Source of the DNA: Candidatus Methanoplasma sp. | GTDB taxonomy: Archaea > Thermoplasmatota > Thermoplasmata > Methanomassiliicoccales > Methanomethylophilaceae | DNA length: 6,963 nt | Direction of reading: 5' to 3' | Assembly: GCA_031256615.1 (NCBI GenBank) | Contig: JAIRQG010000059.1 | Coordinates: 1 to 6,963 of the forward strand | Shown: positions 1 to 6,537 of the stretch, piece after piece | How the letters are laid out: each line of letters starts with the position of its first letter | Position numbering within the stretch: the stretch's first letter is position 1 | The notes under the pieces: model-generated | What the model was told of the DNA's origin: nothing | Databases searched by the model: none | Seen by the model: only the letters and a program-made list of their open reading frames with translations | Program-made: the position numbers and the translations under genes

Positions 1-297
1 GTCCGTGCTGAACGAGCCGAAAGCGGTTATGTCCTTCGTAGACCATCTGGCGGTCGAGCCTTTTATGGAAGGTATGAGATTTCTCCAAAGGTTTGCGCCG
101 TCGGTATCGCCGAGATGGAGGACCATTGTTCCCTTAGACGTGACAAGCTCGAAATCATTGGTTGCCTCAGTGAGCTTTTCCGTTGAGATATGAACGGATA
201 TCAGAGAGCCGGGTTCGTAGACCTCGCCTTTCACGGCATCCTTGAGGGTCGCACCTTTCGCGAGGTCCTTCTCTTTTCCGTTCACTGTTATTTTCAC
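1..297 (-). CDS. Methanogenesis marker protein 3-like, N-terminal part (runs off the window)
   Basis: Only the first 99 codons are present. The start is a GTG with a strong ribosome-binding site (GGAGG, complement of 306-310) eight bases upstream, inside the end of mcrC. The stretch reads VKITVNGKEKDLAKGATL near the start, which looks like a small beta-grasp (ThiS-like) fold. It is followed by a conserved-looking block with GDTDGANLW at about residues 67-75 and RWSTKDITAFG at about 85-95, which I recall from the UPF0288/MMP3 family of methanogens. Family members are several hundred residues long, so most of the gene lies outside. MMP3 is known as part of the MCR activation complex with McrC and component A2, which fits its place one base after mcrC. 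The family call is from memory of the motif and from context. Confidence 0.72.
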   Translation of the reverse strand, partial: MKITVNGKEKDLAKGATLKDAVKGEVYEPGSLISVHISTEKLTEATNDFELVTSKGTMVLHLGDTDGANLWRNLIPSIKGSTARWSTKDITAFGSFSTD

Positions 298-298
298 A

Positions 299-919
299 TC
301 AATCTCCTCCGTGCGGAGGCAGCGTCTTCTGTACCTTCGAGACTATCTCATCCAGTTTATCCTGCGGCGCGGTCACGCCTCTGATGACCCCGGTTATTAT
401 CTCCTTTATCTCACCGCGGGTGTTGATGTCCTCATCCGAAGGCATGACCCTCGAGGTCTTCACGCCGATGGCCGCGAAATCCTCAAAATCCACAGGCGTT
501 TGGGCTACCACTATCGCCGGGATGTCAACATTCCTCAGTATCAGCCTGGCCTTGTATATTATGTGCTGCCTGACGTTCCCGAGGTGTATTATCGCGACCT
601 TGTACTGCTGGATCCTTTCCACTTCGATCGGATCAAGGCCGAACTGTGATGTATGGGATGTGTCGGGCGTATCGGCGGGCACGCCGCCGCCTGCATTGAC
701 CACAAGAACGCTTGTGTCAATGCCTTCTTCTCTCAGGGCGTAGGTTATTTCACAGACAGGCTTCGTTATGTGCCTTCTTCCCGGCCCCATAGCGATGACG
801 ATGACGTCCATCCCGCTTTCGGATATGGTCGCTCTCTGCGCAAGCCCTCCGCCGACGCCCATGCCCATGGATTCTCTGCATTCGACAAAGCTTAGGTGCC
901 TGCCTATCTGCTTTTTCAT
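299..919 (-). CDS. mcrC: McrC, MCR activation protein
   Basis: A soluble cytoplasmic protein of 206 residues, close to the usual McrC length. The whole protein is typical: [16 protein letters not shown] at residues 14-29, [20 protein letters not shown] at 45-64, [11 protein letters not shown] at 71-81, [11 protein letters not shown] at 122-132 and [13 protein letters not shown] at 143-155. McrC is encoded in or near mcr operons and belongs to the complex that, with ATP and component A2, reduces the F430 nickel of methyl-coenzyme M reductase to its active Ni(I) state. Start choice: ATG at 919 has GAGG six bases upstream and places the conserved IGR motif near the N-terminus as in relatives. 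A GTG at 931, overlapping the atwA stop as GTGA, would add four residues and is possible. The gene is the second of a minus-strand operon atwA-mcrC-MMP3 and its end carries the ribosome-binding site of the next gene. Confidence 0.93.
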
Positions 920-927
920 GGGCCGCC

Positions 928-2511
928 TCACTGATCCTTGTTGAACTCATTTATTATCTTGTCCGGCGGTCCGATATCGACGACCTTACCGTTCTTCATG
1001 AACGCTGCGCGGTCGCAGCAGTTCAGCACAAAATCCATGTCGTGGCTTACCACGATGAAGGTCTCATCCAGATCGTCCCTCGCTTTGAGCACCGACTTAG
1101 CGATCATGACCTTTGTTATGGGGTCCATGGTCCCCGTCGGCTCATCGAGGATTATTATTTTCGGTTCTTTGATAAGGACCTGCGCAAAGGCGATCCTTTG
1201 GGATTCTCCGACGCTCAGCGAGTCCGGATAAGAATACAGTATCTTCTCAACGTCCTTTCTGTCAAATCCGACGCTCAGGAGCACCTGGATCGCTTTCATC
1301 TTCGCAAGTTCCGCAGGCATCTTCATGCCTATTGATGTGGAAAGGTTCTGAAGCACCGTGTCGAAGGGATACAGCGAATACTCCTGATGGAGGAACCCGA
1401 TGTAAGGTGTTGCCCTGCCTTTTCCGGCGAAGCCCTCCTCAGACATGTTCACCCAATCGTCGCCTATCTTGATCGCCACTTTGCCGGAGGTCGCAGGCGT
1501 CATTCCCGCGATCATCCTCGAGGTCGTGGTCTTGCCGGCGCCCGATAATCCCACCAATGCGAATATCTCTCTTTCTTTGATGTCAAGCGATACATCGTCG
1601 ACCGCTTTCACCACGCCTCTCGACACAGAGAAATAATGTTTCTGGGCATTTTCCAGTATGATAAGTGAATCTCCGGTATTTTTTCCCGTTTCTTTTTCAA
1701 AGTGGTACCCTTCCATGAATTTGGCCGTCACTTCCTCAGGGGTCCCGTCCATCATGACATTTCCCGCATCCAGCCATATGGCGTGGTCCGACATCTCGAC
1801 GATCGCCTCCGGCCAGTGCGACGCCATCACCATGCATATGTTGTGTTTTTGCACATAATCAACAAGTCTTTTGTGGATTATGGCAGAGGTGTGCGGGTCT
1901 AAGGTGCCCGTCGGTTCATCCGCAAGGAAGAACAGCGGGTTCTTAGCCAACTGTCTGGCCATTACTATTCGCTGCTTCTCCCCTCCCGAAAGGTCCCTGG
2001 CGATGTGCGTCGCGCGGTGCGTCATATTGACGAACTCAAGAAGCTCGACAGCTTTGTCCACGCGTTTCGGGTCTCCGGGATCCAGAGCTTCCAGGATATT
2101 CTCCACAACGGATTTGTCGCCGAATAATGCAAATGTTCTCTGTATCATTATCGCGATGCGCCCTTTCAGCTCCTGTCTCACGGGGTCGTACTCTTTCAGG
2201 CCCCAGTAATCTATCTGTTTGGAGACGGGTTCTGCGCCGCATTTTGAGCAAGGCGTTCCGGGGAACGGCAGATCCATGTTGCCGCATTTAGGGCAGTGGT
2301 TGACATGGAACAGCAGCCTTCCTGAGTCGGGGCCGTAGCCTTCGCTGCCGCGGATCATATGGATGAGGACGCTCTTTCCCGCGGCACTCTTCCCAACCAG
2401 CCCCAACACCTTTCCAGCTGAGATCTTTGCGCTGACATTTTTGAGGACGGTTCTTCCGTTAAAACTCTTAGTAACATTCTCAATGGTCAAAAGATCGACC
2501 GAAGCATCCAT
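928..2511 (-). CDS. atwA: Methyl-coenzyme M reductase activation component A2 (AtwA), twin ABC ATPase
   Basis: A soluble ATPase of 527 residues with two ABC nucleotide-binding domains and no membrane segments, so not a transporter. Domain 1 has Walker [12 protein letters not shown] at 37-47, signature LSGGEKQR at 174-181, Walker B ending LADE near 196-199 and a switch His in SHWPE. Domain 2 has Walker [10 protein letters not shown] at 321-329, a slightly degenerate signature LSVGESQR at 432-439, Walker B IIILDE at 452-457 and switch His in SHDMD. Domain 1 holds an insert with CPKC at 73-76 and CSKC at 88-91, a zinc-ribbon-like pair. This layout, together with the adjacent mcrC, identifies component A2, which supplies the ATP-dependent step in reductive activation of MCR. 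I chose ATG 2511 because a TATA box lies about 26 bp upstream, suggesting a leaderless mRNA. An in-frame TTG at 2523 would add four residues but has no ribosome-binding site. Confidence 0.94.
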
Positions 2512-2746: not shown

Positions 2747-3727
2747 ATGGATGCAGTATACATCCACATGGCATACAGGAACGCTTCAAAGCTTGGCGGG
2801 CCGATACCTAAGTTTGGAGATTATCATGTTTGGAAGGCACTTTACTGCATCTCCGAGAACAATCTGCTCGGAAGGAAAAGTTTGGCCGCACTTCTGAAGA
2901 TCGGAGAAGGAAGCACCAGGACCATACTGAACATGCTTCAGGAAGACGGATTGATCGTCATCAACAAGAACGGCGTCTCCTTCACCAAAGAAGGTATTAC
3001 TGCGTGGAGGGCCCTCAGGATGGAGATACAGCACATAGACGTCTCCGAACTGACAATAGGTAAAAACGACTGCGCGGTAAAGGTCCCCGGAATGGCCGGC
3101 AGCATCAAGTACGGCTGCGAGGAAAGGGATATCGCCATAAAACAGGGAGCAACGGGCGCAACCACTCTCATATGTTCAAACAATGTGCTGCTGTTCCCCG
3201 GATCGCTTTATCCTGTGGACCAGAAGGTGGAAAATGCCCTCAGGGACTGTTTCGACATCAAGGACGGAGATGTGATAATCATAGGCACCGCATCCGACAA
3301 AGAAAAAGCGGAACTGGGCGCGGCGACCGCCGGCCTAGAGCTTATGGGCGGACTGCGCATAAGGCGCGAACTGGACGATGTTCTCACGCAGAGGAGCACC
3401 GGGAGCGAACTGCTTTCCCTTGCCTTTGCGATACACGATCTCGTAGGAGGCCTGCCGGTCTGCGCCAAGAGCAGGGACAACCTGGGCATAAGGATAGAGG
3501 ACGGAGTGGTCATCGACAACGCTTACACCGGTGCGGTATTAGAAGAAGTAATTAATTCAGGGACCACTATTCGGAAAATCGCAATATCCGGACCATATAG
3601 AGGAATAAGAGTCATCGTTACGCCGATAGAGCTCGATAACAGAGTGATAGCGGCCATCGGTGTCGTCGACATCCGAAGCATGGCCGGGATAAACAATTTG
3701 ATCAGACAAAGGAGTGATGAAGAATGA
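2747..3727 (+). CDS. Probable transcriptional regulator: winged helix, DUF4443-like and DUF2111-like domains
   Basis: A soluble protein of 326 residues. Residues about 27-75 form a helix-turn-helix/winged-helix (HVWKALYCISENNLLGRKSL, then IGEGSTRTILNMLQEDGLI). Residues about 100-200 have the look of a DUF4443 domain (ERDIAIKQGATGATTLI, GDVIIIGTASDKEKAELGAA). Residues about 225-310 match what I recall of DUF2111 (IHDLVGGLPVCAKSRDNLG, YTGAVLEEVI, IAAIGVVDI), a domain of unknown function common in methanogens. By architecture it is a DNA-binding protein with a sensing C-terminal part; ligand and targets are unknown. ATG 2747 is chosen from the TATA box spacing; an in-frame GTG at 2702 would read through the promoter and gives a poorly conserved-looking N-terminus. 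It is divergent from atwA and overlaps the next gene by ATGA, so regulation of either is plausible. The family names are from memory of the motifs. Confidence 0.75.
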   Translation: MDAVYIHMAYRNASKLGGPIPKFGDYHVWKALYCISENNLLGRKSLAALLKIGEGSTRTILNMLQEDGLIVINKNGVSFTKEGITAWRALRMEIQHIDVSELTIGKNDCAVKVPGMAGSIKYGCEERDIAIKQGATGATTLICSNNVLLFPGSLYPVDQKVENALRDCFDIKDGDVIIIGTASDKEKAELGAATAGLELMGGLRIRRELDDVLTQRSTGSELLSLAFAIHDLVGGLPVCAKSRDNLGIRIEDGVVIDNAYTGAVLEEVINSGTTIRKIAISGPYRGIRVIVTPIELDNRVIAAIGVVDIRSMAGINNLIRQRSDEE

Positions 3728-4044
3728 ATGAGTGCAAAGCTACCGTAGAACCCGGCGTATGCAAGCTGAAGACCATTATTATCGCAAAGGCAGACCCCGA
3801 AACATTCTTGGTCGAGTTCAGCATCCAAAGCGAATGCCCAAATGTCACGAAACTCGCGGCGGCCGTGAAGCCGATATGCCCGTATACGGAAGTGGAAGCC
3901 AAGCTTAACAACACCGCGGTCTATAACCTCGCGGGTGACCACCTGCCGCATGCGGCGTGTCCGGTGCCCTGTGCATTAATGAAATCCCTTGAGGCCGCTG
4001 CGGGACTGGCCCTTAAGAGGGACGTCCACATCAAACTGGAATGA
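3724..4044 (+). CDS. DUF6951-like cysteine-rich small protein, copy 1
   Basis: A soluble 106-residue protein with no signal peptide or membrane segment. Six cysteines (C4, C13, C38, C52, C79, C83) all recur in copy 2. The best conserved blocks are KPICPYTEVE (residues 49-58) and LPHAACPVPC (74-83). Together with the C-terminal LKRDV they resemble the DUF6951 family of methanogens, whose function I do not know. The cysteine pattern suggests metal or iron-sulfur binding or redox chemistry, but that is inference. The start ATG overlaps the regulator stop (ATGA) and has GGAGTGATG (3711-3719) just upstream, so it is translated from the same mRNA. A hairpin terminator follows at 4066-4091. The gene lies in a roughly 600-bp tandem duplication. 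Confidence 0.8.
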   Translation: MNECKATVEPGVCKLKTIIIAKADPETFLVEFSIQSECPNVTKLAAAVKPICPYTEVEAKLNNTAVYNLAGDHLPHAACPVPCALMKSLEAAAGLALKRDVHIKLE

Positions 4045-4065
4045 ACCGGTTTCCTGCGGCATAAA

Positions 4066-4091
4066 GGGGGAACGCCCCCGTCAAATCTTTT
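4066..4091 (+). terminator. Terminator after copy 1 of the DUF6951-like gene
   Basis: GGGGG (4066-4070) and CCCCC (4075-4079) form a stem with loop AACG, followed by GTCAAATCTTTT. The same arrangement, with a related tail AAATCTTTT, follows copy 2 about 600 bp on, so the element was part of the duplicated block. Confidence 0.6.
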
Positions 4092-4098
4092 CGCCTGA

Positions 4099-4313
4099 AG
4101 AGGACCGGCCTTTCGTAAGGTCATCAGACTCGGTTTTTCGGAAGAAGTAATTAATGGAAGGAAAGCTATCGGGAAAATCGCAATACCCGGGTCTTGTTGG
4201 GAGATAAAGGCCGTCGCGATGCCAATATGCTTCAAACGGAGCGGCAGCGGCCGCCGGTGCCGCCGGCATCGGAAACGCGGCAGGATAAACGGTTCGATCA
4301 TGAGAGGAGTGAT
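4099..4313 (+). pseudogene. Relic of the 3' end of the DUF2111-like regulator gene
   Basis: This stretch is a decayed copy of about 3495-3719. GAAGAAGTAATTAAT at 4141 is identical to the bases at 3542, followed by near-identical GGAAAATCGCAATA. The end, GGATAAAC-GATCA-AGGAGTGATGA, matches the regulator end. Read in frame from 4141 it gives EEVINGRKAIGKIAIPG, against EEVINSGTTIRKIAISG at residues 266-282 of the intact protein, and similarity then fades. A TGA at 4096-4098 closes the frame upstream, with no start codon before the match, so it is not a working gene. Its last bases still provide the ribosome-binding site of the next gene. Similarity upstream of 4141 is weak, so the left edge is uncertain. 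Confidence 0.78.
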
Positions 4314-4318
4314 GATGG

Positions 4319-4642
4319 ATGAGCAAAGAGTGCAAGGTTACCATAGATGCAGGCGTATGCAAGAGGATAACCATTATTACAGCAAAGGCTAACCCCGAAA
4401 CGGGGATGGTTGAAATAGACATCAAAAGCGACTGCCCTGACATTCTGAAGATGTCATGGAGCATCAAGCCGATATGTCCGTATACGGAAGTGGAAGAGGA
4501 AATATGCAAAACAGACGTCTATTCCCTTGCAAGCGGAATTTTGCCCCATGCGGCATGCCCCGTGCCGTGCGGCATAATAAAGGCCGTAGAGGTGGCAGGG
4601 GACCTGGGGCTCAAGAGGGATGTATCTATCAAAATAGAATGA
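4319..4642 (+). CDS. DUF6951-like cysteine-rich small protein, copy 2
   Basis: A 107-residue paralogue of the gene at 3724-4044, about 58% identical in an ungapped alignment by eye. It keeps all six shared cysteines (C5, C14, C39, C53, C80, C84), adds one at C63, and keeps KPICPYTEVE (residues 50-59) and LPHAACPVPC (75-84). Changes concentrate in residues about 42-50 and 60-74. Selection seems to have kept the reading frame while the neighbouring duplicated regulator fragment decayed, so the protein is probably functional. The ribosome-binding site GGAGTGAT (4306-4313) precedes ATG 4319. Because a terminator separates it from copy 1, it needs read-through or its own promoter; I see no convincing TATA box in between. 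Function unknown; metal or redox role is a guess from the cysteines. Confidence 0.8.
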   Translation: MSKECKVTIDAGVCKRITIITAKANPETGMVEIDIKSDCPDILKMSWSIKPICPYTEVEEEICKTDVYSLASGILPHAACPVPCGIIKAVEVAGDLGLKRDVSIKIE

Positions 4643-4665
4643 ACATCCGTATTTCGTATTCTAAC

Positions 4666-4695
4666 GGGGTGAAATTCCCCTGTGAAATCTTTTTT
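4666..4695 (+). terminator. Terminator after copy 2 of the DUF6951-like gene
   Basis: GGGG (4666-4669) pairs with CCCC (4677-4680) around TGAAATT, and the tail TGTGAAATC ends in T6 (4690-4695). It matches the copy 1 terminator in layout and tail sequence, and here the T-run is longer. Confidence 0.6.
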
Positions 4696-4737
4696 CATAT
4701 CGCTAATCTTTTGTAATCATTACTCCATTTCACATTA

Positions 4738-5286
4738 ATGAGCGAAGAATCCGTCAATAAGCCCCTTGAGATCGTAAGGAACATGAAAGGCGTCGTGAAC
4801 GCATTCTACCTTGACAAAGCGATCCTCGGACAGATGAAAGAGGAAGAGGAGAAAGTGAAGGCGATGGGCAATATCGCGGTCAACAATGAGGGATTCAGCG
4901 AGGCTCTTGTAAGGGACCACGTTATTGCGATAATAAAGGACCCGCGTTTCAGGCCTCCGCCGGAGCCGACGGTCGTGCTTATGTCGGACGGGGGCGAGGT
5001 AATGGGCCTGGAGGTGTTCCCGTTCACAGCCAAGGAATATCTCAACAGGGACGGCGTCATATGGCTTTCTGACGCCTTCGTTCTGTTCCCTGAGATCAAA
5101 GGCACCGGCCATGAGAAATTCGTCATGCCGCCCGTATCCTTCCCCGAACTGAACAAGGGCAACGGCTGCAAGGATGTTGTGTCGTGCAGCCCGGCGCCTA
5201 CCTGCGACCTTCTGATGAGGACATATTACAAACTCAAAGACGACCCCAAACTCGCAAGCGTTCTTGTCGGCTACAACGACATATGA
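4738..5286 (+). CDS. Unrecognised 182-aa protein upstream of the McrA thioamidation gene
   Basis: I do not recognise a family. The protein is soluble, with no signal peptide or membrane segment. Residues 33-42 form a charged helical patch (MKEEEEKVKA). The centre is rich in aromatic and hydrophobic residues (VVLMSDGGEVMGLEVFPF, residues 79-96; VIWLSDAFVLFPEI, 107-120). The C-terminal part has three cysteines at regular six-residue steps (C144, C150, C156) in GNGCKDVVSCSPAPTCDLLM, possibly a metal or redox site. ATG 4738 is the first start; no clear ribosome-binding site or strong TATA box precedes it, so a leaderless mRNA is possible. Only 30 bp separate it from the YcaO gene, so both are probably co-transcribed and may work together on McrA. 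It does not look like TfuA, the usual YcaO partner. Confidence 0.72.
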   Translation: MSEESVNKPLEIVRNMKGVVNAFYLDKAILGQMKEEEEKVKAMGNIAVNNEGFSEALVRDHVIAIIKDPRFRPPPEPTVVLMSDGGEVMGLEVFPFTAKEYLNRDGVIWLSDAFVLFPEIKGTGHEKFVMPPVSFPELNKGNGCKDVVSCSPAPTCDLLMRTYYKLKDDPKLASVLVGYNDI

Positions 5287-5316: not shown

Positions 5317-6537
5317 ATGGGCGCACGCATGATATTGAACAGATGTCCGAAATATTCGCCGGCAACGGGAATAAGGACAGTGCCTCCCGAGAAGACGCTG
5401 GAGAGGGTGCTCCCTCTGCTTTCCGGGATAGGGATATGCGATCCGCTGGACATCACTCCGCTTGATAACATAGGCATCCCGGTCTTCGCGGTGGACAGGC
5501 CCGGAGCGTCAAAGGGAGCGGTCAAGAACTACAACGGCAAAGGCGTTACGCCGGAGCAGGCGAAAGCATCCGCTGCCATGGAAGCGATAGAAAGGTACAG
5601 CGCGGAGGTAAGAGATACCGATGAGGTGGTCTACGGTACAATGCAGCAGGCGGCGGATGTAGGTCTCACTGTGGATCCGAGGGACCTCATACTTCCTCTG
5701 AGGACGCTTGACATATACGACACGGCGGAGATCGCTTGGGTCAGAGGTTACGAGATGCTCAGAGGGACTCCTATATGGGTTCCCGCATGCGCGGTATTCC
5801 GCCCGTATTTCCCCGAAGACGATCTCCAGCTTTTCAGGTATCACACGAACGGCATCGCCTCGGGGAACACAATCGAAGAAGCGATCCTCCATGCGCTGTT
5901 CGAATTGATAGAAAGGGACGCTTGGTCGATGGCAGAAGGGCGCGGCAGAGCATCCGCGGATGTGACGGTGAGCGAGGATTCCGTTCCTGGAAAACTGTTG
6001 AAGAAGTTGGAGAGCAAAGACGTGAGAATACACCTTAAGGACCTGACAAATGACATAGGGGTCCCGACCATCGGCGCGGCGGCCGATGATACCGTCTCGA
6101 AAGACCCGGAACTGCTCACGATAGGCGTGGGGACGCATCTGAGCCCCGAGATAGCTTGCGTCAGAGCGATCACCGAGGTCGCGCAAAGCAGGACCACACA
6201 TAAACACGGTGTCAAAGGCAACGCAAGGCTGCTGAAGATAGCAAACGACATGGGATACGAGAGGATCAAAACCGTCAACACGGTATGGTACAGAGACCTT
6301 AACGAAAAGATCCATTTGGAAAGTATGAAGGATCTCTCCACGCCGTATGTCCTGGATGATATCGAAGTGGTTCTGGACAGGCTTGTGGACACAGGGTTCG
6401 GTATGGTGATAGTTTCCGACCTTACAAGGCCGGAGACCGGCATACCCGTGGTACGGATGACCGTGCCCGGTCTCGAGGTGTCCACAATGGATCCCGAGAG
6501 GGAAGGCGCCAGGCTCCGCGGCATGTGGAACGCCTGA
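5317..6537 (+). CDS. ycaO: YcaO-family McrA-glycine thioamidation enzyme (methanogenesis marker protein 1)
   Basis: A 406-residue cytoplasmic enzyme with the YcaO ATP-binding fold. Visible motifs are GKGVTPEQAKASAAMEAIER (residues 74-93, the Ser/Glu-rich ATP and Mg site), NGIASGNTIEEAILHALFEL (178-197) followed by IERDAW, CVRAITEVAQSR (281-292) and the C-terminal VPGLE (384-388). YcaO enzymes activate a peptide amide with ATP. In methanogens the family member of this type converts a glycine of McrA to thioglycine, often together with TfuA, which is not in this window. The assignment to this branch rests on length, the RPGASKGAVKNYNGKG region and the methanogen context with atwA and mcrC nearby. 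ATG 5317 is taken as start; ATG 5329 is an alternative, with AT-rich ATTAAAT about 26 bp before it. The gene ends in tandem stops TGA-TAG. Confidence 0.88.
   Translation: MGARMILNRCPKYSPATGIRTVPPEKTLERVLPLLSGIGICDPLDITPLDNIGIPVFAVDRPGASKGAVKNYNGKGVTPEQAKASAAMEAIERYSAEVRDTDEVVYGTMQQAADVGLTVDPRDLILPLRTLDIYDTAEIAWVRGYEMLRGTPIWVPACAVFRPYFPEDDLQLFRYHTNGIASGNTIEEAILHALFELIERDAWSMAEGRGRASADVTVSEDSVPGKLLKKLESKDVRIHLKDLTNDIGVPTIGAAADDTVSKDPELLTIGVGTHLSPEIACVRAITEVAQSRTTHKHGVKGNARLLKIANDMGYERIKTVNTVWYRDLNEKIHLESMKDLSTPYVLDDIEVVLDRLVDTGFGMVIVSDLTRPETGIPVVRMTVPGLEVSTMDPEREGARLRGMWNA

Follow-up and report, generated by a model that had tools for sequence, protein, structure and literature searches.

Tandem duplicates that diverge asymmetrically, one copy staying conserved and the other changing fast, are a known outcome of gene duplication. 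Here we analyse a 6,963-nucleotide (nt) stretch of DNA from Candidatus Methanoplasma sp. (the window, i.e. the whole stretch; its genome is referred to as G000), in which a ~550-base block with one small cysteine-rich gene of the family DUF6951 is present twice in tandem. The pair resembles such duplicates in that copy 1 (D1) is fast and copy 2 (D2) conserved, both having low ratios of nonsynonymous to synonymous substitution (dN/dS). It differs in that the fast copy is the one retaining an overlap with the regulator gene (REG), in which the start of D1 and the stop of REG share ATGA. The locus can also be set beside the single-copy, REG-linked DUF6951 genes of Methanomethylophilaceae. These share family, length, synteny with A2/mcrC and with the open reading frame ORF182 and, in some loci, YcaO, but the window has two tandem copies, one of them diverged, with a regulator remnant between them. 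McrC, A2 and Mmp3 are parts of an ATP-driven complex that activates methyl-coenzyme M reductase (MCR) in M. maripaludis (PMC12176620).

The reading that we consider probable is that one block was repeated in tandem before G000 and its sister genome G016 separated, after which the REG-joined copy D1 likely changed fast and D2 stayed conserved. D2 would have kept the ancestral job, whereas D1, still overlapping REG, would have taken a changed or narrower one (sub- or neofunctionalisation). DUF6951 itself would be an IscU-like three-cysteine protein, in this subfamily also with a His, and would act as a carrier of sulfur, metal or iron-sulfur clusters.

A genuine tandem block

A single local alignment with small indels joins 3542-4092 to 4141-4694. 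This shows that the block was copied as one tandem piece, as a preliminary description of this DNA had proposed. Copy A comprises the last 61 REG codons, D1 and a hairpin with a T-run, and copy B a decayed REG tail, D2 and a second hairpin (Table 1). The recurring landmarks of that description were found in place: GAAGAAGTAATTAAT at 3542 and 4141 (offset 599), ATG codons at 3724 and 4319, and stop ends at 4044 and 4642. The hairpins were likewise located, near 4066 and 4666-4668, with an offset that the repeat finder puts at 602 instead of 600.

To assign significance, each alignment score was set against 1000 dinucleotide shuffles. The coding sequences of D1 and D2 reached z 77, and similarity extends beyond them, since the regulator tails (3542-3723 versus 4141-4318) scored 67 against a best shuffle of 16 (z 40.7) and the short 3' flank reached 14, its best shuffle 13 (z 6.5). 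Left of the block, 3495-3541 and 4095-4140 are unalike (score 7, shuffle mean 5.9), so that its start moves from the previously proposed 3492 to 3542; 4095-4140 and 4697-4742 are also unalike (score 7, shuffle mean 5.6). The right edge, placed by eye, lies just 5' of a conserved stretch upstream of ORF182 that is TCGCTAATTGTTTATAATC-like in most single-copy spacers compared. Because the block ends before this stretch, the likely promoter of ORF182 was not copied.

A hairpin with a T-run does follow both small genes, but the earlier label of terminator is tentative. Folding of the two hairpin regions is not much better than that of their own shuffles (z +0.5 and -1.05), and the terminator scan was passed by the second hairpin only, in a region (3500-4800) whose shuffled versions average 1.6 such matches.

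An assembly artefact was ruled out, since the copies differ and the sister genome G016 (contig WQTN01000103) independently shows the pair, as proteins with the consecutive locus tags FWC29_02750 and FWC29_02755.

Table 1. Features of the window, with the evidence for each.
Feature	Position	Strand	Evidence or remark
Mmp3, partial	1-297		lies with mcrC and A2
mcrC	299-931		lies with A2 and partial mmp3
A2 component of MCR system	928-2511	-	divergent neighbour; TIGR03269 737 bits, TIGR03264 295 bits, TIGR03268 partial match
REG, helix-turn-helix + DUF4443 + DUF2111 regulator-like protein, intact copy	2747-3727	+	PF14544, PF09884, PF21715 (domain search run from 2750, without the start Met)
Duplicated block, copy A	3542-4092	+	local alignment to 4141-4694
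D1 (copy 1), DUF6951, 106 aa	3724-4044	+	PF22263 104.1 bits; fast-evolving copy
Hairpin + T-run 3' of D1, resembling the hairpin after D2	4066-4091	+	repeat finder family D4
Duplicated block, copy B	4141-4694	+	repeat finder and local alignment
Remnant of last 61 REG codons, small indels	4141-4318	+	72.5% nt identity to G000 REG 3' end
D2 (copy 2), DUF6951, 107 aa, conserved copy	4319-4642	+	PF22263 104.5 bits
Hairpin + T-run 3' of D2	4664-4693	+	repeat finder, terminator scan, folding
ORF182, conserved downstream neighbour	4738-5286	+	no Pfam/NCBIfam match
YcaO-type McrA-glycine thioamidation protein (methan_mark_1)	5317-6537	+	TIGR03266 403 bits

Date of the duplication and divergence of the copies

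The genus sample comprised 17 Methanoplasma genomes (the window genome and 16 others), with matches to D1 in 14 of them at E 0.001 and matches to the Pfam model in 16. The locus was read in 13 of the others. In twelve of these, REG is followed within 0-18 nt by a lone DUF6951 gene; the linked pair is seen in G016 alone, which places the duplication in one lineage among the genomes read. The G016 remnant keeps 21 nt at its left edge, GGAAGAAGTAATTAATGGAAG, identical to the window (window 4140-4160; L031 5812-5832). Most of its remaining remnant is gone, and the starts of D1 and D2 lie 440 nt apart, compared with 595 in the window. Within what is left, TAATTAAT ends 46 nt 5' of the copy 2 start; it may act as a promoter. 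The preliminary description had spoken of a lost regulator fragment. The copied tail has indeed decayed, but only the last 61 codons were copied, and we saw no sign of a whole second regulator.

In a tree built from the DNA of REG 3' ends, the remnant (4141-4319) groups with the G000 and G016 regulators (97/93), on a long branch and with a bootstrap that had not settled. GAAGAAGTAATTAATG is kept in the remnant and in 5 of 10 other REG genes compared, whereas the G000 REG is changed at its last base. That the remnant keeps what the G000 REG has altered fits a duplication before the G000/G016 split, and on these sequence grounds the duplication most likely predates the separation of the two genomes. 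A much older tandem pair, with D1 lost in most lineages, would explain why D1 sits deep in protein trees. This is very unlikely: the remnant still shares 72.5% identity with the local REG, its placement with the G000 and G016 regulators disfavours old paralogy, and the REG-DUF6951 junction is clean in 12/12 other genus loci.

The two blocks had been described as diverging very unequally, with the small gene kept and the regulator piece lost. This contrast holds, but the more telling inequality is between the small genes. At the amino acid level, identity to the 12 single-copy orthologues is 58-79% for D2 and 46-61% for D1; the copies share 58% with each other. Tajima relative-rate tests with these orthologues as outgroups, which presuppose a sister relationship of D1 and D2 and use outgroups that are not independent of one another, gave 19-27 private changes in D1 against 5-9 in D2 for G000 (p<0.05 in 12/12), and 28-37 against 4-9 for G016. 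Between G000 and G016, the D1 orthologues are 75% and the D2 orthologues 88% identical, with dN/dS by the Nei-Gojobori method (NG86) of 0.10 and 0.07, respectively. Furthermore, the D2-type clade has an MSW motif (its Trp stands in 49/50 clade rows) that D1 has lost.

These values bear on the earlier claim that the pair clearly exemplifies neofunctionalisation or dosage. When D1 is compared with D2, synonymous sites approach saturation and NG86 dN/dS is ~0.24, a value that fits constraint and asymmetry and is no proof of a new function; neofunctionalisation of D1 is possible. A plain dosage gain, in which two equivalent copies supply more product, would agree with the two intact frames and the low dN/dS between species. 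We regard it as quite improbable, because the copies are strongly diverged (only 58% identity), D1 lacks the MSW motif and the rates of the two copies are asymmetric.

One result weighs against a recent duplication followed by fast evolution of D1. Two protein trees, the larger of 96 rows and 108 columns, set D1, together with P0002 and P0004, outside the order-wide D2-type clade. This position reflects either a fast D1 that has lost clade-specific residues, or replacement of its coding part by a paralogue.

Replacement would mean that, after the block had duplicated, recombination swapped the D1 coding part for a diverged or foreign DUF6951 paralogue. D1 falls with P0004 in the trees and has outgroup-like residues at 7/19 diagnostic sites, and diverged REG-linked DUF6951 genes exist in the genus g21. 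However, the diagnostic sites are scattered along D1 with no visible break. Forcing D1 and D2 together costs 23.6 log units at an approximately unbiased (AU) test p of 0.117, and constraining D1 to fall with every genus D2 gene yields p 0.136, so that a recent duplication is compatible with the test, whose constraint groups were defined once the first tree was known. In G000, moreover, the proportion of synonymous differences (pS) between D1 and D2 (0.594) is below the mean of D2 to the single copies (0.716; not lower in 61/2000 bootstraps), which favours, weakly, fast evolution of D1 over replacement. Set against D1 to the single copies it was not lower in 211/2000 bootstraps, and in G016 the two corresponding comparisons gave 351 and 377 of 2000. 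We therefore judge replacement unlikely, though better placed than an old pair or dosage, and retain duplication followed by fast change in D1.

A possible parallel is seen in another genus (L166 and L170; G045 and G046), where the REG-linked DUF6951 gene is diverged and a D2-type copy lies elsewhere in the genome. A DUF6951 paralogue of G006 (L049:7557-7874, minus strand) has one in-frame TAG mid-gene, either a pyrrolysine codon or the mark of a pseudogene.

Predicted fold and breadth of DUF6951

Both copies exceed the PF22263 gathering score of 27 (Table 1). The family is not methanogen-specific, as had been supposed: 35 of its best 80 loci are bacterial by record title (Chloroflexota, Spirochaetota, Bacillota, Armatimonadota, Desulfobacterales and others). 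In a control search, the family was also recovered in Methanosarcina acetivorans. Structure models of D1 and of a bacterial homologue have predicted local distance difference test (pLDDT) values of 94.6 and 94.7, and the top solved-structure matches of both were IscU/SufU. From these models, D1 and D2 likely share the fold of IscU, an iron-sulfur scaffold protein.

Cys13, Cys38, His76 and Cys79 occur in 53/53 rows of a residue alignment that includes D1 and D2 and whose rows were partly picked by a pattern holding HAACP; they are also present in 30/30 best family-model matches. D1 has all eight residues invariant in this alignment, of which it is itself one row. IscU shows CGD, C and HC motifs, and its ligand set likewise consists of three Cys and one His. 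DUF6951 would share with IscU/SufU/NifU-N (PF01592) a predicted fold over ~90 residues and three Cys plus one His at matching places in the chain.

There are also differences. The PF01592 profile did not match D1 or D2, hhalign gave a probability of 1.9%, and the Asp two residues after the first Cys of IscU is absent in DUF6951. Searched against PDB sequences, the family profile found nothing at E 1, and a viral fold library gave no match to D1 at E 0.001. Separate PF01592 genes are present in 15/17 genus genomes. Of the eight other-genus family members searched, seven (G017-G021, G023, G024) have DUF6951 without PF01592, which is suggestive only. Unlike IscU, a remote subfamily of DUF6951 is without the His: among weak family-model matches (20 loci, fetched without the HAACP pattern) the three Cys are kept and the His is absent in 16/17 rows with letters. 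In this order, that PF22263 subfamily (L207-L226) has three Cys, has mostly lost the His and mostly reads CL where D1 has CP; by sequence it may deserve a family of its own.

Gene neighbourhoods and possible role

Our literature search, in which subscription papers were mostly outside the scope, found no paper naming DUF6951 or DUF4443 and none joining DUF2111 with a methanogen. Across loci of several Methanomethylophilaceae genera, mmp3-mcrC-A2 recurs divergently to REG-DUF6951-ORF182; in g21 and many Methanoplasma loci, ORF182 is in turn followed by YcaO. G035, which belongs to a different family of the order, keeps McrC-A2/DUF6951-ORF182 without a REG match. No Pfam or NCBIfam model matched ORF182, although it is kept beside DUF6951 across genera.

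Members of a sequence cluster of RACo-type corrinoid activators lie within ~5 kb of DUF6951 in 5/35 bacterial and 4/35 archaeal loci (raw counts). Family models were run on five of these nine (L094 and L102 with Pfam; L121, L126 and L127 with NCBIfam, there under its curated cut-offs), and Pfam RACo matched 3/29 neighbours in one scan. B12-binding and URO-D clusters also lie close to DUF6951 loci. In six related archaeal loci, which count as about one event, there is a neighbour cluster whose one scanned member is MtaB. A weak DUF6951 family-model match comes just after a RACo match in two further genomes, G114 and G112, both from one genus; the divergent DUF6951-like gene of G114 (L202:2748-3092) begins 62 nt after the RACo-like gene. 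Among 200 genomes of the window's phylum, 60 have RACo, and DUF6951 and RACo occur together in 50/50 DUF6951 genomes, all of one order, which makes this co-occurrence weak. Separately, a 510-519 aa ORF lies directly 5' of DUF6951, near mtaB-type genes, in the related archaeal loci L071, L075, L076, L081, L082 and L094; the L094 ORF, the one scanned, has a match to an IS1634 transposase model that falls short of the cut-off.

From the models and these neighbours we infer that DUF6951 may be an IscU-like helper of activation machinery. Its clients would be low-potential systems, A2/McrC/Mmp3 for MCR and RACo/RamA for corrinoid proteins, and D1 and D2 would serve different clients or conditions. 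A bolder proposal, which we consider doubtful, is that DUF6951 represents an unrecognised family of IscU-like scaffolds dedicated to the reductive activation of two targets, Ni(I) MCR and Co(I) corrinoid proteins, and that in these Methanoplasma a tandem copy has come to serve one of the two machines.

The duplication is of an ordinary kind, yet it is placed on a tree, common to two species and lopsided. The D1/D2 pair is thus a natural experiment on an uncharacterised family and would allow testing of how such helper splits work. Together, the predicted fold and the gene neighbourhoods give DUF6951 a first testable role, one that touches a subject still little understood, how methane-making and methyl-transfer enzymes are activated.
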